DNA of 64,000 bases. It comes from Pseudofrankia inefficax (GTDB lineage: Bacteria; Actinomycetota; Actinomycetes; Frankiales; Frankiaceae). The position numbers and the translations under genes are program-made. This document shows positions 5,909 to 29,513 of this stretch, one piece after another. The stretch covers positions 4,154,001-4,218,000 of the forward strand of contig NC_014666.1 of NCBI RefSeq assembly GCF_000166135.1, in the 5' to 3' direction. The notes beneath the pieces were generated by a model. The model was not told the DNA's origin and did not search any database. It saw nothing but the letters and a program-made list of their open reading frames with translations. The stretch's first letter is position 1. Every line of letters starts with the position of its first letter.

Positions 5909-5977
5909 GTCAGCGTCGCTCCTGTCCTTGCCTGCTACGACGAGGTGAGGGTGAGGTGTGCGCGGAACGCGCCCTCG

Positions 5978-6844
5978 TCAGACCGACGACTCGGGCAGGT
6001 CCTCCGGGAACTGCATGGCGACGCGCGAGAGGGTGCCGCCGTCGGTGGCCGGCAGGATCACGCCGGAGACGTAGGCGGACTCGTCGGAGACCAGGAACAA
6101 CGCGGCGTGGGCGTTGTCGAGCAGGGACGGCGGCCGGTTGAGCTTCAGCGGGATCGGCGAGACCTTCGGGTCCCACGGGCCCGCGACCTCCTCGTAGGAC
6201 TGGCCGACGACGGGTGTGCCCTGCTCCATGAGGAAGTTCGGTGACATGCCGTGGGTGGGAGCGAGGGCGTTGACCCGGATCCCGAACTTGCCGAGGTCGA
6301 GCGACAGGCCGCGCACGAGACCGTTGACGCCGGCCTTCGTCGCCATGTACGGGGAAATGCTGTGGTAGGCCGCCAGCGACGCCGCCGAGGACGTCATGAG
6401 GATGACGCCGCCGCCGTTCGCGCGCATCGGCCCCACCGCGTGCTTGGCGCACAGGAACGGCCCGACGAGGTTGACGCCGACGACCTTGTGGAAGTCCTCC
6501 AGCGGGAAGTCCTGGAAGGCGAGCTGTTCGCCGCCCAGGACGGACGGGACGCCACCGCGCGAGACGATGCCCGCGTTCGCCCACATGATGTCGAGCTTGC
6601 CGAACTCGCTCAGCGCGGTTTCCACCGTGCGCGCGACGTCGTCCTCCTGGGTGGTGTCCGCCTGCACCGCCACGGCGACGCCGCCGTCACCCGTCACTAA
6701 CTTGACGGTCTCCTCGGCACGGTCGCCGAGGATGTCCATGACGACGACCTTGGCGCCCTCGGCGGCGAACAGGCGCGACGCCTGCCGGCCCAGGCCTGAT
6801 CCCGCCCCGGTGATGACAGCGACCTTGTCCCGCAGCCTAGGCAT
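5978..6844 (-). CDS. SDR-family NAD(P)-dependent oxidoreductase
   Basis: 288-residue classical short-chain dehydrogenase, alcohol/ketone oxidoreductase. The nucleotide-binding TGAGSGLG is at residues 12-19, NAG at 90-92 and the active-site Asn in VGVNLVG near 125. Ser152/153 and Tyr166-Met-Ala-Thr-Lys170 complete a normal tetrad. Asp37 after the second strand hints at NAD rather than NADP. The start at 6844 has GGAAGGA seven bases upstream; the open frame continues to 7279 but that part crosses the operator region. It is the first gene of an SDR-P450 transcript, divergent from the ABC importer, with copies of the CCTAA-N5-TTAGG repeat between them. Confidence 0.88.
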   Translation of the reverse strand: MPRLRDKVAVITGAGSGLGRQASRLFAAEGAKVVVMDILGDRAEETVKLVTGDGGVAVAVQADTTQEDDVARTVETALSEFGKLDIMWANAGIVSRGGVPSVLGGEQLAFQDFPLEDFHKVVGVNLVGPFLCAKHAVGPMRANGGGVILMTSSAASLAAYHSISPYMATKAGVNGLVRGLSLDLGKFGIRVNALAPTHGMSPNFLMEQGTPVVGQSYEEVAGPWDPKVSPIPLKLNRPPSLLDNAHAALFLVSDESAYVSGVILPATDGGTLSRVAMQFPEDLPESSV

Positions 6845-6943
6845 GGCGGAGTCCTTCCAGGAAGAAGAAACGCGGGGGTAAGTCAGCCCGCGGTGCGATG
6901 TTGATGGGCCCGCCCGACACGCCGGCGCGACCGACGCCGACAA

Positions 6944-6958
6944 CCTAAAGGATTTAGT
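6944..6958. promoter_or_regulatory. operator repeat CCTAA-N5-TTAGG, copy 1
   Basis: CCTAAAGGATTTAGT, a near-perfect inverted repeat (CTAAA/TTTAG arms around GGA) about 100 bases upstream of the SDR start. Confidence 0.65.
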
Positions 6959-7169
6959 CCACCTGGTCAACCGGTGTCGAACGCGCTGTCGACGCGTTGG
7001 CCCGGCGTCGTGAGGTGGGCGTACGCGGCCTGCCTGGGCCGGGCCCGAGGTCGAGTGAGTGACCTCGGGCGACGGCCTATCTCGGGTCGTAGCGGCCACG
7101 TCTCGATCTTCGCCGCGAGGTGGGTGCTCATGGTGTTGACAGCGATCGGGAGTCCTGTAGGCTCGCCAG

Positions 7170-7184
7170 CCTAAATACTTTAGG
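7170..7184. promoter_or_regulatory. operator repeat CCTAA-N5-TTAGG, copy 2
   Basis: CCTAAATACTTTAGG, a perfect palindrome with 6-base arms and a 3-base centre, 115 bases upstream of the binding-protein ATG. It is the best-matching copy of the family in this window. Confidence 0.75.
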
Positions 7185-7298
7185 TTCGACCGCCGGTCAA
7201 TCTGTTGAGCCATCGTCTCCACGCACCGGCGCCCGTGCCCCCGACGTGTTCCCTGCAGCCTTTCGGCCATCCGCCGCACCTATACCCGGAGAACACAG

Positions 7299-10048: not shown

Positions 10049-11100
10049 TGAGTTCCCGCCGACTCCCCGGCCTCGGCCTCGACAGGTTCAGCGGGCTGTA
10101 CCTGTGGGCGCTGTTCATCGCGGTCTTCGCGGTCTGGGTCCCACGGCTGTTCCTGACGGCCGGGACGTTGCACGCGGTGGCCGCTCAGCAGGCCATCGCC
10201 GCGATCGTCGCGATCGCCGTCCTCGTGCCGCTCGCCGGCGGCGCCTACGACCTCTCCGTCGGGGCGACCGTCAACTTCTCGACCATCATGGTCACCGTTC
10301 TGCAGAGCAACCATGGCTGGCCGATGTGGCCCGCGATCGGCGCGACCATCGCGCTCTGTGCCCTGATCGGTGCCATCAACGGTTTCCTCGTCGTGGTGTG
10401 CCGGGTCAACTCGTTCATCGCGACCCTGGGCAGCGCGTCCGTCATCGGCGCCTTCCAGGCCATCACGGCCGGACAGGCCCAGCCACTGCCGCCGAGCTCC
10501 ACGGCCTGGAGCTCCCTGACCCAGCACGAGGTCCTGGGCTTCCAGGTCATCGTCTTCTACATGCTGGCCATCGCCGTCGTGGCCTGGTGGGGCCTCGCGC
10601 GCACCCCCGCCGGCCGCTACCTCTACGCCGTCGGAGGCAACGCGGAGGCCGCCCGGCTCTCCGGCGTCCGCACCGGCCGGTGGACCTGGCTGGCGCTGAT
10701 CGCGTCGGCCACCCTCTGTGGCGTGGCCGGGGTCTTCTACGCCTCCCTGTCGGGACCGTCGCTCACGTTCGGCGGCGCGCTGCTGCTCCCGGCCTTCGCC
10801 GCCGTCTTCCTGGGCTCCACCCAGCTGACCCCGGGCCACGTGAACGTGTGGGGGACGCTGATCGCGCTGTACGCGCTGGCGACCGGAATCAAGGGGCTTC
10901 AGCTCGTCACCGGCGTCCAGTGGCTTCCCGACATGTTCAACGGACTCGCGTTGCTGATCGCCGTTTCCTTCGCGGTCTGGCGCCAGCAGGGCCGCGGCCG
11001 CGACCGGCCGCGCCCGGTGGACGGCGCCACAGCGGGGGAGGCCACGACGACCGAGCCTCCCGCGGTGGTGACGCCGCAAGAACTCCCGGTGAACCAGTAA
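10048..11100 (+). CDS. sugar-type ABC transporter permease
   Basis: 350-residue inner-membrane permease of the RbsC/AraH type. About eight to ten hydrophobic segments are visible, and the family signature region GGAYDLSVGATVNFSTIMV lies near residue 70. Another conserved block is YAVGGNAEAARLSGVRTGR near 200. The start overlaps the ATPase stop. GAAAGGA lies upstream. The last 40 residues are a charged cytoplasmic tail. With the two preceding genes it forms a complete ABC importer. Confidence 0.9.
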   Translation: MSSRRLPGLGLDRFSGLYLWALFIAVFAVWVPRLFLTAGTLHAVAAQQAIAAIVAIAVLVPLAGGAYDLSVGATVNFSTIMVTVLQSNHGWPMWPAIGATIALCALIGAINGFLVVVCRVNSFIATLGSASVIGAFQAITAGQAQPLPPSSTAWSSLTQHEVLGFQVIVFYMLAIAVVAWWGLARTPAGRYLYAVGGNAEAARLSGVRTGRWTWLALIASATLCGVAGVFYASLSGPSLTFGGALLLPAFAAVFLGSTQLTPGHVNVWGTLIALYALATGIKGLQLVTGVQWLPDMFNGLALLIAVSFAVWRQQGRGRDRPRPVDGATAGEATTTEPPAVVTPQELPVNQ

Positions 11101-11135
11101 CGCTGCGCCGCCCGAAGATTGTCTTCACGACGTGT

Positions 11136-11170
11136 GCGGGCCGGAGAGACGTCTCGTCTCTCCGGCCCGC
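11136..11170. terminator. strong bidirectional hairpin terminator
   Basis: A perfect 15-bp GC-rich stem (11136-11150 with 11156-11170), loop GTCTC, followed by AAAA on the plus strand. It separates the importer operon from the convergent CoA-ligase gene. Confidence 0.8.
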
Positions 11171-11190
11171 AAAACCCGCTCTTTCCCGGT

Positions 11191-12711
11191 TCAGCGGACT
11201 CTGGCGTACCGCCGCTCGACGTCGGCGTATTCGGCGCGGATGGCGGGCTTCGCGAGTTTCCCGTTCGGGAGCCGCGGTAGCGGCGCCTCCCGGACCACGA
11301 CATAGCGTGGAACCTTGTAGGCGGCCATCTGCGACACGCAGGCGGCCACGATCGCCGCCTCGTCCACCTCGGCGCTGACCCGCACGATGGCCGCCGGAGT
11401 CTCGCCGAACTTCTCGTCCCGCGCGGCGATGACGGCGACCTCCTCGACGCCGGGGAGCTGAGCGATGACGAGCTCGATCTCGACCGGCGAGATGTTGATG
11501 CCGCCGGAGATGATGAGGTCCTTGAGCCGGTCGGCGAACCGGATGCGCCCGGACTCGTCCCGGGTGCCCAGATCGCCGCTGTGCAGCCAGCCGTCGCGCA
11601 GCGCGGTCGCCGTCGTCGCCGGGTCGTTCCAGTAGCCGGGGGTGACGCCGGGGCCGCGCACGACGATCTCGCCCGGCTCGCCAGGCGCGCACTCGGTGCC
11701 GTCAGCGCGGATCACCCTGAGGTCGGTGAAGACCGAACCGACCCCGCAGGAGTCCGGATGTGTCTGCGCCTCCTCGGGAAGGTTCGCCGTGGCCACGCCG
11801 CCGGCCTCCGTCATGCCGTAGATCTGGCGGAGGCTGACGCCCTTGGCCGCCCAGGCCCGCAGCAGCGGCATCGAGACCGCCGCGCCGCCGACGATCGCCG
11901 AGTTCAGCGCCGAGAGGTCCGCGGCGGCGAACTCCGGAGCCCGGGCCATCGACTCGTAGATCAGGGGAACACCGAAGACGGCCTGGATCCGGTGCCGCTC
12001 CAGCAGGCCCACGGCCTTCGCGGGGTCGAACCCGTTCTCCACCACGAGGGTGCCGCCCAGGACGCCCGTCATCACCAGCCCGTAGACCAGGCCTGGGGTG
12101 AAACAGAGCGGCAGTACCAGCAGGGTCCGCACGCCGGTGCCGAGCCCGTCCTCGCGCAGCGACGCCTCGAAGACGATGTCGAGCAGCGACCGGTTCGTGC
12201 AGATCACGCCCTTGGACAGGCCGGTGGACCCGCTGGTGAACAGCACGGCGACCGGGTCGGCGGGATCCAGGTCGATCCGGACGTGGTCCTGGAGGGCGCC
12301 GTCCCGCAGGGCCGCCACCTCGTCCATGCCGATCGTCCAGAACTGGCCGCCCCGCTCGCCGGCGTCCTTCAGGGCGATCTCGACCGAGCCGTCGGCGAGG
12401 ACGCCGACGGCGGCCGAGTCGCCGAGGACCCGGTGGACCTCGGCGCCGACGAGCCGGGGGTTGACGGGAACCAGCACCGCCCCCGCGCGCAGCACACCAA
12501 GCGAGGCGGCGGCCCAGGGGGCACAGTTGTCGCCAGCCACGGCCACCCGGTCACCGGCGCGGACGCCGGCTTCCCCGAGGCGGGCGGCGACCCGGCTCGA
12601 CCACGCGGCTAATAACCGATAGCTGACGGCGTCCTCGCCGAAGACCAGTGCCGTTCGTTCGGGCGCGGTCCGAGCCCACCAGTCAAAGGCCGACATGATC
12701 GACGTAGCCAT
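11191..12711 (-). CDS. AMP-dependent acyl-CoA synthetase/ligase
   Basis: 506-residue ANL-superfamily ligase that activates a carboxylic acid to its CoA thioester through an acyl-adenylate. The P-loop is LFTSGSTGLSKGV (about residue 178), the A5-like motif YGMTEAG lies near 298, and the hinge region GRIRFADRLKDLIISGG is near 400. The C-terminal catalytic Lys is in PNGKLAKPAIR near 487. GAGGAG precedes the ATG. It sits divergent from the enoyl-CoA hydratase operon across a region with three operator copies, so both probably respond together. It is the likely entry enzyme of the catabolic pathway. The acid is unknown. Confidence 0.9.
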   Translation of the reverse strand: MATSIMSAFDWWARTAPERTALVFGEDAVSYRLLAAWSSRVAARLGEAGVRAGDRVAVAGDNCAPWAAASLGVLRAGAVLVPVNPRLVGAEVHRVLGDSAAVGVLADGSVEIALKDAGERGGQFWTIGMDEVAALRDGALQDHVRIDLDPADPVAVLFTSGSTGLSKGVICTNRSLLDIVFEASLREDGLGTGVRTLLVLPLCFTPGLVYGLVMTGVLGGTLVVENGFDPAKAVGLLERHRIQAVFGVPLIYESMARAPEFAAADLSALNSAIVGGAAVSMPLLRAWAAKGVSLRQIYGMTEAGGVATANLPEEAQTHPDSCGVGSVFTDLRVIRADGTECAPGEPGEIVVRGPGVTPGYWNDPATTATALRDGWLHSGDLGTRDESGRIRFADRLKDLIISGGINISPVEIELVIAQLPGVEEVAVIAARDEKFGETPAAIVRVSAEVDEAAIVAACVSQMAAYKVPRYVVVREAPLPRLPNGKLAKPAIRAEYADVERRYARVR

Positions 12712-13189: not shown

Positions 13190-14014
13190 TTGACGACCGA
13201 CACGGCCCCCGGCATCCCCGTCACCGGAGCCGGCGCGGATGCCGCGCTCTTCGAACGGCGCGGACATGTCGCCGTCGTGACGTTGAACCGTCCCGGCGCC
13301 CTCAACGCCGTCAACTCCGCGCTCGCCACGGCCGCCGGTGCCGCCCTGGAACGGGCCGAGAACGACCCGGACGTGCGGGTCGTCGTGGTCACCGGGGCCG
13401 GCCGGGCGTTCTGCGCCGGCGCCGACCTCAGGGAGATCGCCAGCGGCAACCGGGTGGACGCACCAGAACACCCCGACTGGGGCTTCGCCGGCCTCGTCCA
13501 ACACTGGGTGGCCAAGCCGACGGTCGCCGCCGTCAACGGCTTCGCCCTCGGGGGCGGAACCGAGATCGTCCTGGCCTGTGACCTGGCCGTGATGGACGAG
13601 ACGGCCGCGCTCGGCCTCCCCGAGGTCCGCCGTGGCCTGTTCGCCGCGGCGGGCGGAGTGATCCGCCTGCAGCGCCAGATCCCGCTCAAGATCGCGCTCG
13701 AGATCGCGCTGGCCGGCGAGTCCGTCCCGGCGGCGCGGGCCCTGGAACTCGGCCTGGTCAACCTGGTCGCTCCGGCGGGAACGGCGCTCGCGGTGGCGCT
13801 GGACCTGGCCGAGCGGATCGCCGCCAACGCCCCGCTGGCGGTACAGGCGAGCAAGCGCGTCGTGCATCGGACCTACTCGGCCGGCTCCGACTGGGACGAC
13901 GCGGTCTGGAGGGTCAACGCGGAGGCTGCGCGAGAGGTGTTCGGCAGCCGTGACGCGCGCGAGGGCGCCCGCGCGTTCGCCGAGAAACGCCAGCCGCGCT
14001 GGGAAGGACGATGA
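13190..14014 (+). CDS. enoyl-CoA hydratase
   Basis: 274-residue crotonase-fold enzyme that hydrates trans-2-enoyl-CoA in beta-oxidation. The oxyanion-hole motifs are AFCAGADL and FALGGGTE. Both catalytic glutamates of true hydratases are present, in GGTEIVLACD and in LGLPEVRRG. The start is TTG at 13190 with GAGGAA nine bases upstream; the nearby ATG at 13173 is out of frame. It is the first gene of a tightly coupled four-gene operon, and its stop overlaps the next start (ATGA). Confidence 0.88.
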   Translation: MTTDTAPGIPVTGAGADAALFERRGHVAVVTLNRPGALNAVNSALATAAGAALERAENDPDVRVVVVTGAGRAFCAGADLREIASGNRVDAPEHPDWGFAGLVQHWVAKPTVAAVNGFALGGGTEIVLACDLAVMDETAALGLPEVRRGLFAAAGGVIRLQRQIPLKIALEIALAGESVPAARALELGLVNLVAPAGTALAVALDLAERIAANAPLAVQASKRVVHRTYSAGSDWDDAVWRVNAEAAREVFGSRDAREGARAFAEKRQPRWEGR

Positions 14015-15201
14015 CCGGCCAGGAGCCGGCCGCCATCGCCGGGCTGGGGATCACCGAGCTCGGCAAGGTCTACGGCCGCACGTCGACGAGCCTGGCCGCC
14101 GAGGCCGTCCGGCTGGCACTGGCGGACGCCGGCCTGGCCCTGGCCGACCTCGACGGGCTGCTCGTCAGCGGCGGCCTCCGCCAGGACGTCGGACTCAGCC
14201 TCGCGGGCGTGCTGAGCACCGGGCCGCTCGGTCTGCTCGCGCAGGTCAACGCGTTCGGCGCGAGCGCGGGGGCGATGGTGGCACAGGCCGCGCAGGCCAT
14301 CGCCTCGGGCGCCGCGCGCACCGTCGCCTGCGTCTTCGCGGACACCCCGCTGCGACCGAAGCGCCCCGCGGGGGCGGCCTGGGGCGCGCCGGGAGCCGGG
14401 GCCGGCGCCCCGGCCGGGCTCGCCGGCTGGCAGCTCGCCTCGGGCGCCACCAACCCGAACATCCTCTACGCGCTGGCCACGCGCCGGCACATGGAGCGCT
14501 ATGGCACTCGCGGCGAGCAGCTCGCCGAGGTGGCCGTCGCCCAGCGCGCCTGGGCCGCGGGCAACCCGCTCGCCGCGATGCGCGAGCCACTGACCGTCGA
14601 GCGGCACCAGACGTCCCGGTGGATCGCCGAGCCCCTGCGCCTGCTGGACTGTTGCCTGGTCTCCAACGGCGCGGTGGCTGTCGTCGTGACCTCCGCCGAC
14701 CGCGCCGCGGACCTCCGCCAGCCTCCGGTGCACCTGTGGGGCTACGGGCAGGCGCATCAGCCCCGCCGCATGCTGGCCGGCTCCGACTGGGGCCTGGTGA
14801 CGCCCGCGGCCCGGTCCGGCCCCCAGGCGATGCGGATGGCCGGCGTCGGCGTCGAGGACATCGACATCTGCGAGCTCTACGACTGCTACACCTACACCGT
14901 CCTCGTCACGCTGGAGGACTACGGATTCTGCGCCAAGGGCGAGGGCGGCCCGTTCGTGGCCGACGGCCGGCTCGCCCCGGGCGGGAAGCTCGCCTGCAAC
15001 ACCGGCGGTGGTCAGCTCTCCGGCTACTACATGTGGGGGATGACGCCGCTGTCCGAGGCGGTCATCCAGGCCCGTGGCCAGGGCGGGCAGCGCCAGGCTC
15101 CCCGCAACGACGTCATCCTGGTCAGCGGCAACGGTGGCATCCTGGAGCACCACGCGACCGTCGTGCTCAGTCCGCACCCCCGGCACCGGGGCGCCCCATG
15201 A
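14011..15201 (+). CDS. thiolase-fold protein without the nucleophilic Cys (Ltp2-like aldolase candidate)
   Basis: 396 residues with the two-layer thiolase fold seen in SCP-x/lipid-transfer proteins. Where thiolases carry the acyl-accepting Cys, this protein reads VNAFGASAGAM, with no Cys. The C-terminal part keeps CELYDCYTYTVLVTLEDYGFC and the Gly-rich NTGGGQLSGYYM. Known relatives of this type, such as steroid Ltp2, are retro-aldolases that need a DUF35 partner; such a partner is encoded next, overlapping by 4 bases. I therefore infer C-C cleavage of a beta-hydroxyacyl-CoA rather than thiolysis. A conventional acyl-transfer role cannot be excluded. Confidence 0.75.
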   Translation: MTGQEPAAIAGLGITELGKVYGRTSTSLAAEAVRLALADAGLALADLDGLLVSGGLRQDVGLSLAGVLSTGPLGLLAQVNAFGASAGAMVAQAAQAIASGAARTVACVFADTPLRPKRPAGAAWGAPGAGAGAPAGLAGWQLASGATNPNILYALATRRHMERYGTRGEQLAEVAVAQRAWAAGNPLAAMREPLTVERHQTSRWIAEPLRLLDCCLVSNGAVAVVVTSADRAADLRQPPVHLWGYGQAHQPRRMLAGSDWGLVTPAARSGPQAMRMAGVGVEDIDICELYDCYTYTVLVTLEDYGFCAKGEGGPFVADGRLAPGGKLACNTGGGQLSGYYMWGMTPLSEAVIQARGQGGQRQAPRNDVILVSGNGGILEHHATVVLSPHPRHRGAP

Positions 15202-15722
15202 GCGGGCCGGACCCGGTCGCGGGTCCCGCGTTTCCCGCGGTCCGGCGGGACGACGCGAGCGCGTCGTTCTTCGACGCGGCCGCCCGCGGCCAGCTGCTGG
15301 TCCGCCGGTGCCGGGCCGGCGGCGACGTGCTCGGGCCCGAGGCGAGAACCTGCCCCAGCTGCGGGTCCGCCGACCTTGACGACGTCTTGGTGTCGGGCCG
15401 AGGCACGCTGGTCAGCTGGGCCGTCGTGCACCAGGCGCCGGTGCCGTCGCTCGCCGCCGCCGTGCCCTACGTCAGCGTCGTCGTGGAGCTCGCCGAGGGC
15501 CCCTGGCTGCTGGCGCGACTGGTCGAGTCCGACGCGTCCGGGCTGCGCGCCGGCACCGAGGTCGAGGTCCGCTTCGTCCAGTCGGGCGAGCCGCTCGGGG
15601 TGCCGGCGGGCGAGGTGCTCCCGGCGTTCGCGGTCGCCTCGCGGCTGGGGGAGCCGGTCTCGTCGCCGGCCGAGATGGCGTCCGGAACCCCGGCAGCCGG
15701 TGGCGGAGGGACGAGCGCATGA
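15198..15722 (+). CDS. DUF35 OB-fold protein (partner of thiolase-like protein)
   Basis: 174 residues. An N-terminal helix (ASFFDAAARGQLLVRRC) is followed by a zinc-ribbon-like segment and an OB-fold (VSWAVVHQAPVPS, VPYVSVVVELAEG). The ribbon is degenerate: the first knuckle reads CRAGG instead of CxxC, while the second, CPSC, is intact. DUF35 proteins bind thiolase-fold enzymes and complete their acyl-CoA site. The gene overlaps its thiolase-like neighbour (ATGA) and the CoA-transferase (ATGA), so the products are probably made in step. Confidence 0.8.
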   Translation: MSGPDPVAGPAFPAVRRDDASASFFDAAARGQLLVRRCRAGGDVLGPEARTCPSCGSADLDDVLVSGRGTLVSWAVVHQAPVPSLAAAVPYVSVVVELAEGPWLLARLVESDASGLRAGTEVEVRFVQSGEPLGVPAGEVLPAFAVASRLGEPVSSPAEMASGTPAAGGGGTSA

Positions 15723-18229
15723 CCCTTCCCCTCACGGGTGTGCGGATCGTCGAGCTGACCGACGGCCTGGCCGACGGGTGCGGCCGGTATCTCGCGGACC
15801 TGGGCGCCGAGGTCGTGAAGGTGGAGCCGCCGGGCGGCGCGGCCTCCCGCCGGGCCGGGCCGAGGCCCGGCGACAGCCTTCCGTTCCTGCTGCGCAACGC
15901 GAACAAGCTCGGCGTCGTGCTCGACCTCGAGACTCCGGCCGGCCGGGACCGGCTGCGCGAGCTGGTCTCCCGGGCTGACATCGTCGTCGAGTCGGCGCCG
16001 CCCGGGCACCTCGACGCGCTCGGAGTCGGGCCGCGGGACCTGCTCGCGGGCAACCCGGGCCTGGTCGTCGTGTCCGTGACCGGCTTCGGGCGGACCGGTC
16101 CCTACCGGAGCTGGTCGGCGACCGAGGCGGTGCTGGCCGGGCTCGGCGGGGTGCTGTCGCGGTCCGGACGCCCCGGCGAGGCGCCGCTGCTGCCCCCGGA
16201 CGGGCTGGTGGAGTCCACGGTGGCGGTGCTCGCGGCCTGGTCCGCGCTGGTCGCCTACGCCAAACGGCTGCGGACCGGCGTCGGAGAGCTGGTCGACCTG
16301 GCCGCGTTCGAGGCCGTCGTCCATGGCTTCGACCCGGCCTTCGGCACGCAGGGCACGGCGGCCGCGGGCCGGACGGAGGACTTCCCGCGCGGCCGCCCGG
16401 ACGCGGCCGACTTCTATCCGGTGTTCGCCGCGCGCGATGGCCACGTCCGGCTCTGCCTGCTCGCGAAGCGGCAGTGGCGAGCGATGTTCGGCTGGCTGGG
16501 GGAGCCGCCGGAGTTCGCCGACCCCCGCTTCGACACGATCCCCGCCCGGTTCCGGGCCGCGGACCGGCTGCACCCACGGATCGCGGCGCTGTTCCGCGAC
16601 CGGCCCTGCGCCGAGCTGGTGGCCGAGGGCGCCCGTCGCGGGGTCCCGGTCGCCGCGGTGCTCACCCCGGCGCAGGTGCTCGCCACCGAGCAGTTCGCCG
16701 TCACCGGCGCGCTGGTCGACGTCGAGATCGCGCCGGGAATCCGGGCCAGGATCCCGTCGGGCTACGTCCGGGTCGACGGTGAGCGGGCCGGCTTCCGTCG
16801 GCGCGCGCCGCTTCCGGGCGAGCATGACGACCTCGTGTTCGGCTCGGCGGCGGGCGCGTCCGGCGCGGACGGACCCGCCGCCTGCGCGCGGGGCGCCGCC
16901 CGCGGCGGTCCGGCCGGCGTGGGAGCGCGGCCGTTGGAGGGCGTCCGCGTGCTGGATCTCGGGGTCATCGTGTTCGGCGCCGAGCTGGGCCGGCTGTTCG
17001 CCGACCAGGGCGCCGACGTGATCAAGATTGAGAACGTCGCGTTCCCGGACGGGCTGCGCCAGTCGCGCGGCGGCGCCGCGATGAGCGCGTCCTTCGCCTG
17101 GGGCCACCGCAACAGGCGCGGCCTCGGTCTCGACCTTCGGGACCCGCGCGGCTCCGAGATCTTTCGAGCACTGGTGGCGCGTTCCGACCTCGTGCTCGCG
17201 AACTTCAAGCCGGGCACGCTGGAGGCGCTCGGTGCCTCACCCAACGCGCTGGCCGCGATCAACCCGGGTGTCATCGTCTCGGACAGCAGCGCCTTCGGTG
17301 GGCAGGGGCCCTGGAGCGCACGGATGGGGTACGGCCCTCTGGTGCGAGCCTGCGCCGGTGTCTCCGCGCTGTGGCGTGTGCCCGGCACCGACGACGCCTA
17401 CTGCGACGGCTCGACGGTGTATCCCGACCATGTCGCGGCGTATGCCTCGGCCGTCGCACTGCTCGCCGCGCTGATCGGCCGCCTCCGCTCGGCGGCGGCC
17501 GGCGGCGTCGCGCTCGGAGCGACGGTCACCGGTGCGCAGGTGGACGCCGCGCTGGTAGCGCTGGGCGCGCGGCTCGCGGCACAGTCGCTCGCCGGCGACG
17601 GCGGACCGGAGCCGGACGCCGGCGACCACCTGGCGGCGGACGACGCGATCCACGGCGTGTACCCCTGCGCCGGAGATGACGAATGGTGTGTCGTGTCCCT
17701 CCGCGGTGACGATGACTGGCTGCGGCTCTGCCAGGTCGCTGGGCGCCCGGATCTCGCGGACGCGCCGGCCTTCCGCACCGCGGCGGCACGTGCCCGTCGG
17801 CGGCCCGAGGTGGACGCCGTCGTCGCAGCCTGGACGCGGCGGCATCCGCCGCGCGACGTGATGACGAGGCTCCAGGACGCGGGCGTCCCGGCGGGGGTCA
17901 TGCTGCGCCTGCCGGAGGAGCTCACCGATCCTCAGCTGCTCGCTCGGGAGTCGTTCGCGACGCTGCGCCACGACGCGCTGCCGGGACCGATGGCGGCGAA
18001 CGCCCGGGTCGCTCGGTTCTCCGGCATTCCCGACCCGGAGCTGCGCCCGGCCCCCTTCCAGGGCGAGCACACCCGGGAGATCTGCGCGTCGCTCCTCGGC
18101 CTGGCCGACGACCAGATCGACGAGCTCGTGCGCGACGCTGTGCTACAGCCCGCTCCCGACGACCCTGCCCTGCGCGCGGCGGCCTCTGCCGGGATCCGAC
18201 GCGACGTCGCGATGCGAGCCGGGGCCTGA
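15719..18229 (+). CDS. tandem CaiB/BaiF family III CoA-transferase
   Basis: 836 residues containing two family III CoA-transferase (or acyl-CoA racemase-like) units in one chain, about residues 1-375 and 405-800. Each starts with the typical LxGVRxxxL and GAEVVKVEPP or GADVIKIEN motif. The catalytic Asp that carries CoA in this family lies after the GP-Y/W block. Here the first half reads SATEAVLAGLGG and the second GYGPLVRACAG, so neither has an obvious Asp. The protein may move CoA between acids, may be a racemase or may have lost activity. It ends a four-gene operon and stops five bases from the convergent TetR gene. Confidence 0.82.
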   Translation: MTLPLTGVRIVELTDGLADGCGRYLADLGAEVVKVEPPGGAASRRAGPRPGDSLPFLLRNANKLGVVLDLETPAGRDRLRELVSRADIVVESAPPGHLDALGVGPRDLLAGNPGLVVVSVTGFGRTGPYRSWSATEAVLAGLGGVLSRSGRPGEAPLLPPDGLVESTVAVLAAWSALVAYAKRLRTGVGELVDLAAFEAVVHGFDPAFGTQGTAAAGRTEDFPRGRPDAADFYPVFAARDGHVRLCLLAKRQWRAMFGWLGEPPEFADPRFDTIPARFRAADRLHPRIAALFRDRPCAELVAEGARRGVPVAAVLTPAQVLATEQFAVTGALVDVEIAPGIRARIPSGYVRVDGERAGFRRRAPLPGEHDDLVFGSAAGASGADGPAACARGAARGGPAGVGARPLEGVRVLDLGVIVFGAELGRLFADQGADVIKIENVAFPDGLRQSRGGAAMSASFAWGHRNRRGLGLDLRDPRGSEIFRALVARSDLVLANFKPGTLEALGASPNALAAINPGVIVSDSSAFGGQGPWSARMGYGPLVRACAGVSALWRVPGTDDAYCDGSTVYPDHVAAYASAVALLAALIGRLRSAAAGGVALGATVTGAQVDAALVALGARLAAQSLAGDGGPEPDAGDHLAADDAIHGVYPCAGDDEWCVVSLRGDDDWLRLCQVAGRPDLADAPAFRTAAARARRRPEVDAVVAAWTRRHPPRDVMTRLQDAGVPAGVMLRLPEELTDPQLLARESFATLRHDALPGPMAANARVARFSGIPDPELRPAPFQGEHTREICASLLGLADDQIDELVRDAVLQPAPDDPALRAAASAGIRRDVAMRAGA

Positions 18230-19081: not shown

Positions 19082-20245
19082 ATGACCCAGCTGACGGCGC
19101 CGCGGGAGACACGGATCGGGCGGGCGTTGGAGCATCTGCGCAACGGTTCGACCGACGAGTTCGACGTCGTGACACCATTCGACGCCGTCGAGTACACGGA
19201 CCCGCGGCTTGCCGCGCGTGAGCGGAACCTGGTGTTCGGCAGAGTTCCGTCGATCGTCGCGCACGGCTCCGAGGTGGCGCGCGCCGGCGACTTCGTCACG
19301 CTGCAGATGCCGCGTAACAAAGTCATCGTGGTCCGACAGGCTGACGGTGTGGTGAAGGCCTTCGTGAATCTGTGTCGGCACCGCGGGGCATTGCTGGAAG
19401 AGCAGGAGAAGGGTAGTTGCCGAGTGTTCTCCTGTGGATACCACAGGTGGGCCTACGGCACGGACGGCTCCCTGCGGGCGATCACGCGAGACGCGACGTT
19501 CGGCAAGGTGGACCGCGCGCGCTACGGCCTCGTCGAGCTGCCCTGCGAGGAGCGCCACGGCTTCGTCTGGCTGGTCGACGACGCTACCCAGCAGATCGAC
19601 GTCGCGGCCTGGCTCGGCTCTCCCATGGACGAGATTCTTGGCGGCTATGGCCTTCCGGATCTTGTCTGCTACCGGGCCGAGGGGTTCGACGAGCCGGTCA
19701 ACTGGAAGATCATGCAGGACGCATTCCTGGACGGCTATCACATCCAGTACGCCCATGCGAATACCGCCGCGAGGCACATCCATACCAACGTGATGGCGGC
19801 GGAGGACTTCGGCCGGCACTGTCGGTTCATCGCGCCGCGGAAGTCCATCGACCGCTGGCTCGACGAGGACCCAAATGGGACCAGCCTTGCCCCGCACGTC
19901 ACCGAGACGCATTTTCTGCTGCCCAACAGCACTTTGCTGCGTCAGCCAGACCATTTCGAGCTCCTGACGTTCCGTCCGCACCCGAAGGATCCGGGCCGCA
20001 GCCGCATGGAGATGCGGTTGCTGGTGCCGGCTGTGGAAGCGAGCGGCATGTCCGACGCCGCGTGGACGAACCTCTGGGACAAGAACTGGCAGATCCTGCT
20101 GGATGTTCTTCACGCCGAGGACTTCCCCCTGCTGCGCAGCTCGCAGGCCGGCCTGGAAAGCGCGGACGCGGGCGGCATGCTGCTCGGACGAAACGAGCTG
20201 GCCAATCAGGTCTTCCGTCGCGAGCTGGGCCGGCTCGTCTCCTGA
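19082..20245 (+). CDS. Rieske non-haem iron oxygenase, alpha subunit
   Basis: 387-residue ring-hydroxylating-type oxygenase. The Rieske [2Fe-2S] ligands are Cys98/His100 (CRHRG) and Cys118/His121 (CGYH). The mononuclear iron site has D217-x2-H220-x4-H225 in FLDGYHIQYAH and a likely third acidic ligand in HAEDFPLL. GGGAGG precedes the ATG at 19082; 10 more in-frame residues upstream are not needed. No beta subunit, ferredoxin or reductase gene is adjacent, so it is probably an alpha-only enzyme using general electron-transfer partners. It heads an operon with aldehyde dehydrogenase, acyl-CoA dehydrogenase and an enoyl-CoA hydratase-like gene. Confidence 0.9.
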   Translation: MTQLTAPRETRIGRALEHLRNGSTDEFDVVTPFDAVEYTDPRLAARERNLVFGRVPSIVAHGSEVARAGDFVTLQMPRNKVIVVRQADGVVKAFVNLCRHRGALLEEQEKGSCRVFSCGYHRWAYGTDGSLRAITRDATFGKVDRARYGLVELPCEERHGFVWLVDDATQQIDVAAWLGSPMDEILGGYGLPDLVCYRAEGFDEPVNWKIMQDAFLDGYHIQYAHANTAARHIHTNVMAAEDFGRHCRFIAPRKSIDRWLDEDPNGTSLAPHVTETHFLLPNSTLLRQPDHFELLTFRPHPKDPGRSRMEMRLLVPAVEASGMSDAAWTNLWDKNWQILLDVLHAEDFPLLRSSQAGLESADAGGMLLGRNELANQVFRRELGRLVS

Positions 20246-20327
20246 CCGCGGACGCGCTGGTCGCCCTGATACCCACGCCGCGCGTCTGCGGCCGATCCGT
20301 GCACTCGGGCTGGAAACGGAGGCCGGG

Positions 20328-21749
<1,422 letters not shown>

Positions 21750-21864
21750 CGGGAGTCATCCGGACGCCTGGCCGGTCGTGACCGGTCCGGCACAGTCATC
21801 CCCTCGCCGACCTCGATGTTGCTCGCGACGTTCGGCGAGATTCACAACCTGCGCGGGAGCGTTC

Positions 21865-23013
21865 ATGGAGACGGACCTTTACGAGGCGGATCACGAGGCC
21901 TACCGGACGACGGCCAGGGAGTTCATGCGACGGGAGGTCGTGCCGCGCCTGGGCGACTGGGATGTGCGGCGCGAGGTCGACCGCGACACCTGGACGAAGG
22001 CGGGGGCCGCCGGGCTGGTCGGCCTCGCGGTTCCGGAGCGGTTCGGCGGCGCGGGCATGAACGACTACCGCTACCGCTTCGTCGTGTCGGAGGAGATCGC
22101 GGACGCGGGGGCGGCGGCCCTGCAGTCGGCATTCGCGGTCAACGACGACATCGTGCTGGGCTACCTGCTCGCACAGGCCACCGAGGAACAGAAGGCACGG
22201 TGGCTGCCGGGCTTCGCGTCGGGCGAGACGATCAGCGCGATCGCGATGAGTGAGGCGGAGGCCGGCAGCGACCTGCGCGGGATCGCCACCCAGGCGGTCC
22301 GCAAGGGGGACCGCTGGCTGCTGAACGGGTCGAAGACGTTCATCAGCAACGGGATCACCGCCGATCTGGTGATCGTGTTCGCCAGGACCGACGCGGCGGA
22401 AGGCGCCGGCGGCTACAGCCTTTTCGTCGTCGAACGCGGCATGCCCGGTTTCGAGCGGGGCCGCAAGCTGGACAAGATCGGACTGGCCGCCCAGGACACC
22501 GCCGAGCTGTTCTTCCACGACGTCGAGGTGCCCGCGGACAACCTGTTGGGCAGCGCCGGCGCGGGCCTGCGGTCACTGATGGAGAACCTCCCACGCGAGC
22601 GCATGGGAATCGCCGTCGCGGCGCAGTGCTCGGCGGAGGCCTCCCTGCGCTGGACGGTGGACTACGTACGGCAGCGGCGGGCGTTCGGCAAGGCCGTCGC
22701 CGAGTTCCAGACCGTCGGTTTCACGCTGGCCGAGCTGCGTACGCAGGTCGAGGTGACGCGGGCCTATCTCGACCGTTGCGTCCGCCAGCTCAACGCCGGG
22801 GCGTTGTCCGCGGTGGACGCGGCGAAGGCGAAATGGTGGGCCACCGATGTGCAGTGGAAGGTCATTGATGCCGGCGTCCAGCTGCACGGTGGCTACGGCT
22901 ACATGACCGAGTACCCGATCGCCCGCGCGTTCATGGATGCCCGGGTGCAGCGGATCTACGGCGGCACGAACGAGATCATGAAGGAGATCATCAGCCGGGA
23001 CCTGCTGCGTTGA
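21865..23013 (+). CDS. acyl-CoA dehydrogenase
   Basis: 382-residue FAD-dependent acyl-CoA dehydrogenase that makes the 2,3-enoyl-CoA. It has the family signatures IAMSEAEAGSDL, SKTFISNG and QRRAFGKAVAEFQ. The C-terminal YGGTNEIMKEI has Gly where MCAD-like enzymes have their catalytic Glu. The base is therefore probably Glu in LPRERMGIA, as in isovaleryl- and long-chain types. It starts at ATG 21865 with GGGAG upstream. It sits between aldehyde dehydrogenase and enoyl-CoA hydratase-like genes, a normal beta-oxidation neighbourhood. Confidence 0.9.
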   Translation: METDLYEADHEAYRTTAREFMRREVVPRLGDWDVRREVDRDTWTKAGAAGLVGLAVPERFGGAGMNDYRYRFVVSEEIADAGAAALQSAFAVNDDIVLGYLLAQATEEQKARWLPGFASGETISAIAMSEAEAGSDLRGIATQAVRKGDRWLLNGSKTFISNGITADLVIVFARTDAAEGAGGYSLFVVERGMPGFERGRKLDKIGLAAQDTAELFFHDVEVPADNLLGSAGAGLRSLMENLPRERMGIAVAAQCSAEASLRWTVDYVRQRRAFGKAVAEFQTVGFTLAELRTQVEVTRAYLDRCVRQLNAGALSAVDAAKAKWWATDVQWKVIDAGVQLHGGYGYMTEYPIARAFMDARVQRIYGGTNEIMKEIISRDLLR

Positions 23014-23052: not shown

Positions 23053-23868
23053 ATGGCTGACACCGTGATCGAGATCGAGGAGCCGCGGCCCGGCATCACG
23101 CTGGTCCGGCTCAACCGTCCTGAGGTGCTCAACGCCATCACCGCGGAGCTGATCCAGGGGCTTCGGGACGTACTGCGCGGGATTCAGGATGACGCACAGG
23201 TGCGCGCGGTGGTGCTCACGGGCGCCGGCCGGGCCTTCTGCGCGGGCCTGGACCTGCGCGGCTACGGCGACCTGCCCGGGTCGCCGGAGCACGGCGAAGG
23301 CGTTCCCCAGACCGGCCTGCGGGGACAGCGCCATGTGTCCGAGCTGGTTGAGGACTTCCGCAGGGTGCGGGCTCCGATCATCGCGGCCGTCAACGGCCCG
23401 GCGGCCGGGGCCGGGCTGTCGATCTCGCTGCTGTGTGACATCAGGCTGGCCGCGCGGTCGGCGTCCTTCCACGCGTCCTTCATCAGGCGCGGCCTGTCCG
23501 GGTGCGACATCGGCGTCAGCTGGCTGCTGCCCCGCGCCATCGGGTTCGCCCGAGCCGCCGACCTGCTGCTGACCGGCGGATCGCTGGACGCCGCGGAGGC
23601 CGAACGGGTCGGGCTGGTCAGCGCGGTCATCCCGGACGAGGAGCTCCTCGACGCCGCGGTGGAGCGAGCCCGCGCGATCGCGGAGCTCAGCCCGTTCGGG
23701 GTCTGGCAGACCAAGGAGCTGCTGTGGGCGAACCAGGAGATCGGTGGGCTGCGGGCGGCGGTGGCGCTGGAGGACCGGACCCAGGCCCTCGCCGGAATGA
23801 CCGAGGACCACCGGGAGGCGGTGGCCGCGTTCCTGGAGAAACGCCCGGCGATCTACCGTGACCGGTGA
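23053..23868 (+). CDS. enoyl-CoA hydratase/isomerase family protein
   Basis: 271-residue crotonase-fold protein. The oxyanion loop AFCAGLDLRGYG is normal, but the two hydratase glutamates are absent: the first position reads AGAGLSISLLCD, and the second region has FIRRGLSGCDIGVSW with an Asp. That pattern is seen in delta-isomerase or dienoyl-CoA isomerase types, so double-bond isomerisation is more likely than hydration. It is 40 bases after the acyl-CoA dehydrogenase and ends the Rieske operon, convergent with the binding-protein gene. Confidence 0.85.
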   Translation: MADTVIEIEEPRPGITLVRLNRPEVLNAITAELIQGLRDVLRGIQDDAQVRAVVLTGAGRAFCAGLDLRGYGDLPGSPEHGEGVPQTGLRGQRHVSELVEDFRRVRAPIIAAVNGPAAGAGLSISLLCDIRLAARSASFHASFIRRGLSGCDIGVSWLLPRAIGFARAADLLLTGGSLDAAEAERVGLVSAVIPDEELLDAAVERARAIAELSPFGVWQTKELLWANQEIGGLRAAVALEDRTQALAGMTEDHREAVAAFLEKRPAIYRDR

Positions 23869-27159: not shown

Positions 27160-27468
27160 ATGCCGCAGCATCCCCCGGAATTCGAGGCGCTCTACCGACG
27201 GCATGTCGAGTTCGTCCTCGCGGGTGACCTTGAGGCCGTCCTCGCGGACATGGTGAACCTGCCGCGGATCCTCGAAGGCGTCATCGCTCCCCGCAGGGTC
27301 ACCGCGTACACGGTCATGGACATCCGGTCCGAGGGAGAGACCTGCGTGGGGGAGACGGTCTACGACACCCCGAAGGGGCGGATCGGGCTGCGGTCCGTCT
27401 GGGAGCTGCGGGACGGGGCCTGGAAGGCCGCCGCGTTGGAGAACTTCCCGCCGCCGGCCACCGGCTGA
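27160..27468 (+). CDS. small NTF2-like protein
   Basis: 102 residues. It has a helical start (EALYRRHVEFVLAGDLEAVLADM) and then a curved-sheet pattern ending RSVWELRDGAWKAAALENF, typical of NTF2/SnoaL-like domains. GAGGAGG precedes the ATG. It aligns along its length with residues about 10-105 of the next protein (LAGD-AVLAD, then a W-x-A/R-EN-P ending), so the two genes carry paralogous domains. NTF2-like domains include dehydratases, isomerases and non-catalytic partners. Its role with the DUF35 fusion is discussed in the findings. Confidence 0.75.
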   Translation: MPQHPPEFEALYRRHVEFVLAGDLEAVLADMVNLPRILEGVIAPRRVTAYTVMDIRSEGETCVGETVYDTPKGRIGLRSVWELRDGAWKAAALENFPPPATG

Positions 27469-27553
27469 TGACCTCGTCACTCGGCCGGGAATCCGGGCTC
27501 CGATATCTCTCGACAGTAGGTGGGACTGGCCGACACCGCAGGGGAGCGCTGAG

Positions 27554-28342
27554 ATGACGGGTGCGACGACGGCGGCCGACGTCGATGAGGTGAGGCAGCG
27601 GGCGCGGCGACACGCACGCGCACTGCTGGCCGGTGACCGCGGCGCGGTGCTGGCCGATCTGTTGCCGGACCGCTGGCAGCAGATCCTCGGTTCGCTCGAC
27701 CTGCCCGCGCCGCTGGTCCAGGCGGAGGTCACGGAGGTCCGCGCCGGCGCTGGGGCCTTCGTCGAGACGCGGCTGCGCTGCGTCGGCGTGGGTGCGGACG
27801 CTCGCGAGGTACGCCTGCGCTGGGTCGCGTACGAGGGTTCCTGGCGTGTCCGCGAGGCCCGCAACGTGCCGTCGCGCCTGCCGGAGCCTGTCTTCCTCGC
27901 CGAGGAGTATCCCCGCGTCGAGGCCGAGCACTGGGAGGCCATGAACCGGGGCGAGTTGCGGGTCCAGCGCTGCGTCGCCTGCCGGACCTGGATCTGGGGG
28001 CCCCGCCACCTGTGCCCGAGCTGCCGCGGCTTCGAGCTGGCCTTCCAGCCCGTCGCCGCCGAGGGCGTCGTGTACTCCTGGACCCGGACGGTGCAGTCCT
28101 TCGAAGCGACGATGGTCGGTCGGGTGCCGTTCGTGGTTGCCCTCGTCACGCTGCCGCACGCAGGCGACGTCCGCGTGGCCGCCGTGCTGGAGCCGACCCC
28201 CGGCGAGGCCGACCCGGCGATCGGGCAGGCCGTCGACGGAGTGTTCGTCCCCTTCGGCGACCACGACCGCAAGATCCTTCGCTGGCGCCTGCGTGAGCGG
28301 ACCAACGAGGCACGGACGGCAGGAGACAGCGGTGCCCACTGA
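27554..28342 (+). CDS. NTF2-like-DUF35 fusion protein
   Basis: 262 residues. Residues about 10-105 are an NTF2-like domain similar to the preceding small protein. Residues about 125-255 are a DUF35 unit: a helix (AEHWEAMNRGELRVQRC), a complete zinc ribbon CVAC...CPSC and an OB-fold (VYSWTRTVQSF, PFVVALVTLP). The gene overlaps the thiolase-like gene downstream by 11 bases. In steroid degradation the DUF35 domain of ChsH2 is fused to a hot-dog hydratase domain and docks on the Ltp2 aldolase; here the fused domain is NTF2-like instead. A hydratase-plus-docking role is inferred. Confidence 0.8.
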   Translation: MTGATTAADVDEVRQRARRHARALLAGDRGAVLADLLPDRWQQILGSLDLPAPLVQAEVTEVRAGAGAFVETRLRCVGVGADAREVRLRWVAYEGSWRVREARNVPSRLPEPVFLAEEYPRVEAEHWEAMNRGELRVQRCVACRTWIWGPRHLCPSCRGFELAFQPVAAEGVVYSWTRTVQSFEATMVGRVPFVVALVTLPHAGDVRVAAVLEPTPGEADPAIGQAVDGVFVPFGDHDRKILRWRLRERTNEARTAGDSGAH

Positions 28343-29513
28343 ACGCGAGCGCGGGTTCCGCGGCGCCGCCGCGGTCGTCGGCGTCGGCGAGACGGAGCTC
28401 TACCGGCGCGGCACCAGCCCGTACTCGGGCATGCAACTGGCCGCGATGGCCGTCATCGGGGCCTGCGAGGACGCCGGGGTGTCCCCGACGGCGGTGGACG
28501 GGTTCTCGTCCTACGCCCATGACTCGAACGAGGGGCTGCGCCTCGGCGCGAACCTCGGCGTCGAGGAGATCCGGTTCTCGCAGCTGGTGTTCGGCGGGGG
28601 AGGCGGCGGGGTCGCGGCGGCTGTCAACGCCGCGGCGGCGGCGGTCGCCAGCGGCCAGGCGGACTGCGTCGCGGTCTACCGCTCGATCACCCAGGCCGAC
28701 GACGGCCGGGGTTCCTACGTCCAGCATCACCTCGGGCCGTTGTATACGGCGCATGGGCTGTTCACCGCCGCGCAGTTCTGCGCGCTGAGAACCCAGCGGA
28801 TGCTCGAGAACGACGGCGTCCCGGCCGAGGCGATGGCGGCCGTCGCGCTCGCCGGCTACCACCACGCGCAGCGCAACCCGAGAGCGATCGCATACGGCCA
28901 GCCGCTCACGGCCGAGAAGTACTCGGACTCCCGCTGGGTGTCCTCGCCGCTGCGGCTGTTCGACTGCTCCCGGGAGAACGACGGCGCCGCCGCGCTGCTC
29001 GTCGTCCCCGCCGAGCACGTCGAGCGCTACCGTGGCCGGCCCGCCTACATCCTCGCCGGGGTCCAGGGCGGCGGCCGGGGCTGGTCGGAGTCGCTGGAGA
29101 ACGAGACCGCCTACACCAGCGCCGGCTTCCATCCCGCGATGGTGCAGCGGCTCTGGGCCGCCGCGGGCATCGGCCCCGACGACGTCGATGTCGTCCAGCT
29201 CTACGAGAACTTCACCGGCCCGGCGGTCGCCTCGATGATCGACTTTGGGCTGTGTGAGCCCGGTCCCTCCGCCGTGAAGACGCTCCATCTCGACAACCTG
29301 ATCGTCGACGGCGGCAGGCTGCCGATCAACACCGCCGGCGGCAACCTCGCCGAGGGGTTCGTTCACGGCATCAACCTCGTCCTGGAGGCGGTCCGGCAGC
29401 TGCGCGGCGGGTCGCCGAACCCGGTCCCCGGCGCCGGCGTCTCGCTGCTGGTCGGCGGCCCGGCGGCGCCGCTGGTCAGCGCGACCGTCTTCGGCGCCAC
29501 GCCCGGCACCTGA
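28332..29513 (+). CDS. thiolase-fold protein without the nucleophilic Cys (Ltp2-like aldolase candidate)
   Basis: 393 residues, second thiolase-like/lipid-transfer protein of the window. The position of the thiolase Cys falls in a Gly/Ala stretch (FGGGGGGVAAAVNAA) with no Cys. The C-terminal half has QLYENFTGPAVASMIDFGLCEPG and NTAGGNLAEGFVHG. The GTG start at 28332 has AGGAGAC upstream and overlaps the DUF35 fusion. Its pairing with a complete DUF35 protein supports a retro-aldolase complex. It is only distantly similar to the thiolase-like protein at 14 kb, so the region has two such complexes with different partners. Confidence 0.78.
   Translation: MPTERERGFRGAAAVVGVGETELYRRGTSPYSGMQLAAMAVIGACEDAGVSPTAVDGFSSYAHDSNEGLRLGANLGVEEIRFSQLVFGGGGGGVAAAVNAAAAAVASGQADCVAVYRSITQADDGRGSYVQHHLGPLYTAHGLFTAAQFCALRTQRMLENDGVPAEAMAAVALAGYHHAQRNPRAIAYGQPLTAEKYSDSRWVSSPLRLFDCSRENDGAAALLVVPAEHVERYRGRPAYILAGVQGGGRGWSESLENETAYTSAGFHPAMVQRLWAAAGIGPDDVDVVQLYENFTGPAVASMIDFGLCEPGPSAVKTLHLDNLIVDGGRLPINTAGGNLAEGFVHGINLVLEAVRQLRGGSPNPVPGAGVSLLVGGPAAPLVSATVFGATPGT

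Follow-up and report, generated by a model that had tools for sequence, protein, structure and literature searches.

Must the partner of a DUF35-docked, thiolase-fold aldolase be a hydratase of the MaoC fold? The question is raised by three adjacent genes of Pseudofrankia inefficax, which lie in the 64,000-nucleotide stretch of DNA analysed here (hereafter referred to as the window), part of a single-contig genome of 8.8 Mb. They encode a single-domain NTF2-like protein (P0001), a fusion of an NTF2-like domain with a C-terminal DUF35 domain (P0002) and a thiolase-fold protein (P0003). The original prediction, made from the bare sequence, regarded them as a possible analogue of ChsH1–ChsH2–Ltp2, in which a pair of NTF2-like domains had replaced the MaoC hydratase. 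Our analysis upholds the plan of this prediction, a partner domain with a C-terminal DUF35 domain beside a thiolase-fold protein that lacks the nucleophilic cysteine, with Ltp2 as the closest solved relative of P0003. Judged from the sequences, the unit appears to be a variation on known DUF35-docked thiolase-fold complexes, in which the NTF2 partner is newly described.

Reading of the three open reading frames (ORFs) reproduced the predicted coordinates, sizes and 11-base overlap (Table 1). The closest named matches of P0003 are those of Frankia sp. AgB1.9 (95% identical) and Frankia nepalensis (86% identical), and the position of its GTG start is unchanged in the 95%-identical copy. A chance ORF was considered for the short P0001 and ruled out, as its reading frame is conserved at 87% and 67% in relatives; the three codon positions show 9, 6 and 16 differences over 102 codons, with the third varying most, a modest signal.

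The best match of P0003 in the PDB is the aldolase Ltp2 (6ok1_A, E 1.6e-56). Residues 88 to 93 of P0003 are all glycine. A HMMER alignment places the cysteine of the CASG stretch of 7yvy, which we take to be the thiolase nucleophile, opposite G89, and a MAFFT alignment places the cysteine of two paralogues opposite G91; the predicted loss of the nucleophile thus holds under both alignments. According to the available text of PMC12329534, Tyr294 in the YDHF motif of Ltp2 serves as the base and Tyr344 as the acid, and Sal uses Tyr302 and Cys304 in a YDCY motif. The corresponding motif of P0003 is YENF, with Tyr291 opposite the base. This motif is present in all 17 thiolase copies linked to NTF2 or SCP2, which also keep Tyr291 and the glycine site, and in 23 of 23 mycobacterial copies; the eighteenth member of the clade (L109) has YVNF. 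The base tyrosine is kept across the whole clade and by its closest neighbours in the tree. At the site of Ltp2 Tyr344, a phenylalanine (Phe343 in P0003) is found in all 18 clade members and all 23 mycobacterial copies, or 33 of 33 distinct copies when the eight mycobacterial genomes common to both sets are counted once. By contrast, tyrosine occupies this site in all eight near relatives checked beyond the clade (L040, L041, L111–L113 and three proteobacterial plasmid copies), and among more distant paralogues in the window's genome the site varies and is mostly arginine. Because Ltp2 Tyr344 corresponds to phenylalanine in P0003, the expectation that the chemistry would be as in Ltp2 is not simply transferable.

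The predicted C-terminal DUF35 domain of P0002 is borne out by Pfam (PF12172, E 8.5e-11, above the cut-off; PF01796, E 1.2e-5, just under it at 25.6 versus 27.1 bits) and by its fold. It carries a zinc ribbon, C140-x2-C143-x10-C154-x2-C157, whose four cysteines are kept by every one of the 29 distinct fusions (from 33 sequences, four of which are repeats apart from their ends). Residues 110 to 251 superpose on the DUF35 domain of ChsH2 (6ok1_B; Z 15.0, 3.0 Å, 128 residues) and on that of Shy (9myr_B; Z 14.2, 2.8 Å, 132 residues), both of which were solved in complex with a thiolase-fold aldolase; an archaeal translation recovery factor (6htj_B, Z 14.9) ties with them.

The NTF2 assignment rests on structure. 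Neither P0001, P0002 nor any of the 17 NTF2 domain sequences in our alignment A5 (14 fusions and three P0001-type proteins) reached an NTF2-type family in Pfam, where the A5 sequences matched just three unrelated families, none better than E 0.14; P0001 reached no NTF2-type family in Pfam plus NCBIfam, and its sequence matches in the PDB were at chance level (best E 0.69). The AlphaFold models of P0001 (predicted local distance difference test (pLDDT) score 90.6) and P0002 (mean pLDDT 82.0), compared using Foldseek and VIA-align, match NTF2/cystatin-like chains with best Z scores of 10.1 for P0001 and 10.8 for residues 3 to 108 of P0002, only modestly above the structure-comparison background of 7–8, with most listed rows being NTF2-like. 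These matches agree with the NTF2-like fold that had been expected of both proteins. The proposed paralogy of P0001 and the P0002 N-terminal domain also stands: although the two give only a weak match in direct BLASTP (E 0.009, 25% identity), the profile–profile comparison is firm (E 5.9e-10, 96.6%), and a search of the 21-kb locus L069 with P0001 reached the fused NTF2 domain of that other genome at E 1e-7.

Ten residues of the fused NTF2 domain, H20, D28, D35, R40, Q43, R75, R87, W90, R103 and N104, are invariant in all 29 distinct fusions. The three P0001-type proteins lack R40, Q43, R75 (in a gap) and R103, which all 14 fusions of A5 keep, and retain H15, D23, D30, R78, W81 and N95. Since the free copy was found beside the fusion in just three Frankia and lacks conserved residues, P0001 is most readily understood as a duplicate that is specific to this lineage and partly degenerate, and that would postdate the fusion.

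A pattern-limited scan of a collection of genomes from 84,980 species with the thiolase alignment yielded 12 named loci. In each of the 12, the gene immediately before that of the thiolase encodes an NTF2–DUF35 fusion; 11 of them also have, not far away, a gene closely homologous to the Rieske oxygenase gene of the window, the exception being a contig of 8.6 kb. Fusions were found in five of the 35 genomes belonging to the order of the window and, among 297 sampled genomes of Mycobacterium (the genus of M. triplex), in 23. In all 23 mycobacterial neighbourhoods (eight of whose genomes are shared with the named loci) the thiolase gene adjoins the fusion, and in 22 of them Rieske and GNAT-like genes lie on its other side, within ~1.5 kb. 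The GNAT-like protein, which has no family match above the cut-off, is encoded between the Rieske and NTF2–DUF35 genes in Mycobacterium, and after the Rieske gene in SCP2-type loci (L068 8281–9252, L077 8386–9240, L107 4280–4867); no match to it was found in the Frankiaceae loci or the window.

A free P0001 beside the fusion was found in three genomes only, those of the window, Frankia sp. AgB1.9 and F. nepalensis. An NTF2 profile search of 12 genomes, which left 15 further mycobacterial fusion genomes outside its scope, found no second NTF2 copy in the 11 other fusion genomes, and the twelfth, an SCP2-type genome (G439), gave no NTF2 match at all. The NTF2 heterodimer of the original prediction thus lies outside the plan that is conserved. 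Among 393 sampled genomes of the class, six gave NTF2-profile matches, five from Frankiaceae and one (G511) with a P0001-type homologue divided between two reading frames close to the end of its contig (L110, 3500–4075), which was left out of all counts. On visual inspection, the ORFs beside it resemble those of an alcohol dehydrogenase and a tripartite transporter, and this locus suggests that proteins of the P0001 type are not confined to the vicinity of DUF35 genes. A scan of viral contigs with the thiolase alignment found no relative. Relatives of DUF35 and thiolase were found on plasmids, on which neither P0001 nor the NTF2 domain of P0002 had a match; the Rieske proteins of Delftia, Burkholderia and Variovorax plasmid clusters were considered as orthologues and rejected at 26–31% identity over 84–101 residues.

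The history of the NTF2 domain can be followed in a FastTree phylogeny of thiolase-fold proteins (44 tips, one gene being present twice). The 14 thiolase copies accompanied by NTF2–DUF35 form one clade (support 0.938), whose sister comprises three copies from one genus in which DUF35 is a separate gene (joint support 0.988). In these sister loci (L106, L107 and L108) a gene for an SCP2 protein (PF02036, E 1.1e-8 for the one scanned, the other two being 84% and 98% identical) lies directly upstream of the free DUF35, followed by the orthologous thiolase. Further out are a copy with DUF35 alone (0.993) and then three proteobacterial copies with DUF35 alone (0.999), and the clade with the plasmid-borne Ltp2 of a ChsH2–ChsH1–Ltp2 set (L111, our yardstick) lies outside. 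Because the relatives have DUF35 alone or SCP2 and the MaoC-linked Ltp2 falls outside, the gain of an NTF2 domain by a free DUF35 is, as far as the sequences indicate, likelier than an exchange with MaoC, and the tree thus speaks against a replaced hydratase fold. The order SCP2–DUF35–thiolase recalls the eukaryotic SCPx protein, a fusion of SCP2 and thiolase.

In the following comparisons of the surroundings of the unit, 17 family loci were used (L066, L067 and L075 were left out, the same genomes being represented by L065, L064 and L063), and the 20 control loci are the surroundings of other such thiolases in the window's genome only, several of these stretches overlapping. The predicted neighbouring aldehyde dehydrogenase (ALDH) was recovered, immediately upstream of P0001. 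ALDH homologues are present in 15 of 17 family loci versus 7 of 20 control loci (Fisher p 0.002), and Rieske homologues in 14 of 17 versus none of 20, values that are only a guide, given the relatedness of the family loci and the partly overlapping controls drawn from a single genome; L108 was counted without an ALDH although it has a short ALDH-like ORF. Taken as specific proof of aldehyde release, the neighbouring ALDH is weakened by the 7 of 20 control loci that also have one. In F. nepalensis, the gene right after that of the thiolase is a homologue of the window's second ALDH gene. Cytochrome P450 (P450) homologues of at least 43% identity occur in 12 of 17 family loci. No MaoC protein was found in the window or the 17 family loci with the ChsH1 and ChsH2 of L111 as queries at E 0.01, only the DUF35 parts being matched. 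Mce permease (YrbE) genes near three of the 17 loci (L068, L073 and L074; L068 with a Mce4_CUP1 protein) hint at a lipid substrate.

Six genes, for a short-chain dehydrogenase/reductase (SDR), a P450, a Rieske oxygenase, the NTF2–DUF35 fusion, the thiolase and a coenzyme A (CoA) ligase, are common to the window and Mycobacterium sp. M26, in rearranged order, and the Frankia cluster may span about 4.6–31 kb. More generally, Rieske, usually P450, SDR, CoA ligase and ALDH genes accompany the unit. ABC transporter genes lie in between the minus-strand P450, SDR and CoA ligase genes (4649–12711). The window holds two different DUF35–thiolase pairs: a second thiolase-like gene (14011–15201), with the motif YDCY as in Sal, is followed by a DUF35 gene at about 15270–15722, and this pair adjoins CoA-transferase III and crotonase genes. 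Elsewhere in the genome, at about 6.82 Mb, L078 (9639–11194) encodes a closer relative of Ltp2 (6ok1_A, E 1.5e-131), which goes with a free DUF35 and has the YENF motif and a tyrosine at the Tyr344 site; the sole MaoC trace within 9 kb of it is a weak ChsH1 match (E 0.009, 69 residues).

Table 1 Features of the unit and its surroundings (positions in the window, except for the last row, which refers to locus L107)
Feature	Positions	Strand	Basis or remark
P0001, single-domain NTF2-like protein, 102 amino acids (aa)	27160..27468	+	ORF reading, predicted model
P0002, NTF2-like domain fused to C-terminal DUF35, 262 aa	27554..28342	+	
NTF2-like domain of P0002, residues about 7–106	27572..27871	+	Predicted model, alignment
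DUF35 of P0002, residues about 121–246, zinc ribbon and OB fold	27914..28291	+	Pfam, fold match
Overlap of P0002 end and P0003 start, 11 bases, P0003 start GTG	28332..28342	+	
P0003, thiolase-fold protein without nucleophilic Cys, 393 aa	28332..29513	+	PDB match Ltp2
Y291-E-N-F motif of P0003, opposite Ltp2 Y294-D-H-F and Sal Y302-D-C-Y	29202..29213	+	Alignment
F343 of P0003, site of the proposed general acid Tyr344 of Ltp2	29358..29360	+	Alignment
Aldehyde dehydrogenase, immediately upstream of P0001	25415..27109	+	
Second aldehyde dehydrogenase	20103..21749	+	Domain from about residue 88 of the ORF
Acyl-CoA dehydrogenase	21778..23013	+	
Enoyl-CoA hydratase (crotonase family)	23053..23868	+	
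Rieske oxygenase alpha subunit	19085..20245	+	Homologues 66–97% identical in 14 of 17 family loci
CoA-transferase family III protein	15719..18229	+	
AMP-binding CoA ligase	11191..12711	-	56% identical to the ligase after the thiolase gene in Mycobacterium sp. M26
Cytochrome P450	4649..5908	-	63% identical to the Mycobacterium sp. M26 cluster P450
Short-chain dehydrogenase/reductase	5978..7279	-	Match to the mycobacterial cluster SDR covers 5990–6910, 62% identical
SCP2-type arrangement in L107	8706–9522		

Starting from the folds, the paralogy, the DUF35 type, the loss of the cysteine and the conserved linkage, which are features of sequence or model, we propose the following mechanism. P0002 would dock on P0003 through its C-terminal DUF35 domain, as we consider very probable, and the two would make up a complex. 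P0003 would cleave a β-hydroxyacyl-CoA by retro-aldol chemistry with Tyr291 as the base, which is the probable reaction, using an acid that would be neither of the Ltp2 type (Tyr344, here Phe343) nor of the Sal type (Cys304, here Asn293). It is the DUF35 and thiolase parts that make docking and retro-aldol cleavage the leading reading, with the gene overlap and the conserved adjacency as signs of the association. The neighbouring ALDH would accept the released aldehyde or ketone. Just before cleavage, the bulky acyl-CoA would be handled by the NTF2 domain of P0002, whose single likeliest role would be the hydration of an enoyl-CoA in a polar pocket, a possibility that we place somewhat short of an even chance, with a carrier role nearly as likely. 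Hydration is supported by the nine polar residues that are invariant in the distinct fusions; for three other NTF2 families, a lack of conserved polar residues has been taken to argue against catalysis, according to the available part of PMC3924330. It is further supported by the NTF2-fold dehydratases of steroids, SteC and BaiE (available text of PMC13101464), together with the lack of a MaoC match in the window and the 17 family loci. H20 might stand in for Tyr14 of KSI, an idea to which we give no weight. In Frankia, P0001 may pair with the fused NTF2 domain, a prospect that we regard as evenly balanced. The chain as a whole, in which an NTF2 domain hydrates an enoyl-CoA for a DUF35-docked retro-aldolase, is offered tentatively.

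Several observations weigh against this chain. Phe343 and Asn293 together remove both known general acids from P0003. An acyl-CoA dehydrogenase match is absent from eight of the nine Mycobacterium and Pseudonocardia family loci, so that a local source of enoyl-CoA is missing there and the P450 or Rieske enzymes could instead set the hydroxyl, and all four Frankiaceae clusters have a crotonase hydratase of their own. Since SCP2 takes the place of NTF2 in the sister clade and DUF35 stands by itself in the next relatives, an NTF2 hydratase is not required by the core enzyme; the three SCP2-type loci have no NTF2 domain, no crotonase match and no MaoC match, and lend no support to the hydration that the original prediction had assigned to the NTF2 domain. 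The NTF2 domain could thus be a non-enzymatic binding or gating module that passes a hydrophobic acyl-CoA to the aldolase, as SCP2 might, with the β-hydroxyl being set by P450 or Rieske chemistry. The SCP2 gene directly upstream of the free DUF35 in the sister clade, beside a thiolase with the same motif, fits such a module, as do the outgroup loci without any partner domain, the frequent P450 and Rieske genes that could set the hydroxyl, the lack of a MaoC match and the crotonase match in just one of the nine Mycobacterium and Pseudonocardia loci; the NTF2 superfamily also includes non-catalytic ligand binders (available part of PMC3924330). However, its many strictly conserved polar residues exceed the needs of a plain lipid pocket, though they could bind CoA phosphates, and a slot common to SCP2 and NTF2 is no proof of a common role. 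We therefore hold this carrier role to be possible and, like hydration, short of even.

The missing acids also raise the prospect that P0003 is not an aldolase and acts on CoA esters in some other carbon–carbon reaction, for instance a hydrolytic retro-Claisen cleavage or a cysteine-free acyl transfer, with the ALDHs serving other steps. DUF35 domains also serve enzymes that are not aldolases, among them PhlABC, MucABC and benzoylsuccinyl-CoA thiolase, and ALDH genes are common near control loci too; yet the closest solved relative of P0003 is an aldolase and the base tyrosine is kept by the clade and its closest neighbours in the tree, and we regard such a reaction as unlikely. More improbable still is an obligate heterodimeric hydratase formed by P0001 and the fused domain, as in ChsH1–ChsH2, with one active site common to both paralogues. 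The genes are adjacent and truly paralogous, and the loss of R40, Q43, R75 and R103 from P0001, with H, D, R, W and N kept by both, is what a specialised pair would be expected to show. The 11 fusion genomes in which no second copy was found imply, however, that the partner is not needed for the basic function of the family. The mapping also runs the other way: it is the fused rather than the free copy in which the conserved set is complete, but the catalytic subunit of ChsH1–ChsH2 is ChsH1 (according to the available text of PMC11321319). Retro-aldol cleavage by a DUF35-docked P0003, with an NTF2 domain that handles the substrate, stays our preferred reading.

A comparison with known systems places the unit among the DUF35-linked aldolases. 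With ChsH1–ChsH2–Ltp2, which acts on the actinobacterial C3 steroid side chain, it shares a C-terminal DUF35 with a C4 zinc ribbon on a two-domain partner and a cysteine-less thiolase-fold enzyme with a base tyrosine (294 in Ltp2, 291 in P0003); it differs in that the partner domain is NTF2-like rather than MaoC, in that the 11 other fusion genomes searched have no free second NTF2 copy, and in the changes of Tyr344 to Phe343 and His296 to Asn293. The proteobacterial bile-acid system Shy–Sal likewise has a single fused partner–DUF35 protein, without a separate inert partner, and a thiolase-fold aldolase, whereas Shy has a MaoC domain where P0002 has NTF2, Cys304 of Sal (YDCY) corresponds to Asn293 (YENF), and its DUF35 zinc site is C3H1, not the C4 of the 29 distinct fusions. 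In Mycolicibacterium neoaurum, the aldolase Atf1 is also encoded with a DUF35 protein, ChsH4, which unlike P0002 is DUF35 only and has no partner domain (available text of PMC10398937).

On the NTF2 side, BaiE and SteC use this fold to remove water from steroid hydroxyls; we found no sequence link between them and P0001 or P0002, and the available text of PMC13101464 mentions no DUF35 fusion. AtzH (DUF3225, NTF2 superfamily) is a top-tied structural match of P0001 (Z 10.1, 3.2 Å, 99 residues) and, according to the available text of PMC6219798, an NTF2 protein of a catabolic operon with an arginine-rich pocket; it is only 14% identical to P0001, however, and is a proposed decarboxylating amidohydrolase of cyanuric acid breakdown. 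In the open-licence PMC literature, as far as its available text goes, we found no description of the NTF2–DUF35–thiolase architecture and gene cluster. A bolder interpretation, which we consider doubtful, is that of an independent hydratase–aldolase machine, in which an NTF2-fold enoyl-CoA hydratase would be tethered by DUF35 to a third kind of thiolase-fold aldolase with neither the Tyr–Tyr pair of Ltp2 nor the Tyr–Cys pair of Sal. As the slot is taken by an SCP2 lipid carrier in a sister lineage, DUF35 would then act as a general socket into which different substrate-handling modules fit.

Collectively, our findings suggest that DUF35-docked thiolase-fold enzymes have an exchangeable partner slot beside them, which can be occupied by MaoC, by NTF2, by an SCP2 protein or by nothing, so that the reason why hydratase and aldolase are tethered becomes testable by natural variation. 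They define a clade without the general acid of the Ltp2 reaction, for which the catalytic acid must be found anew, and mark out a conserved actinobacterial cluster of SDR, P450, Rieske oxygenase, CoA ligase, NTF2–DUF35 and thiolase genes.

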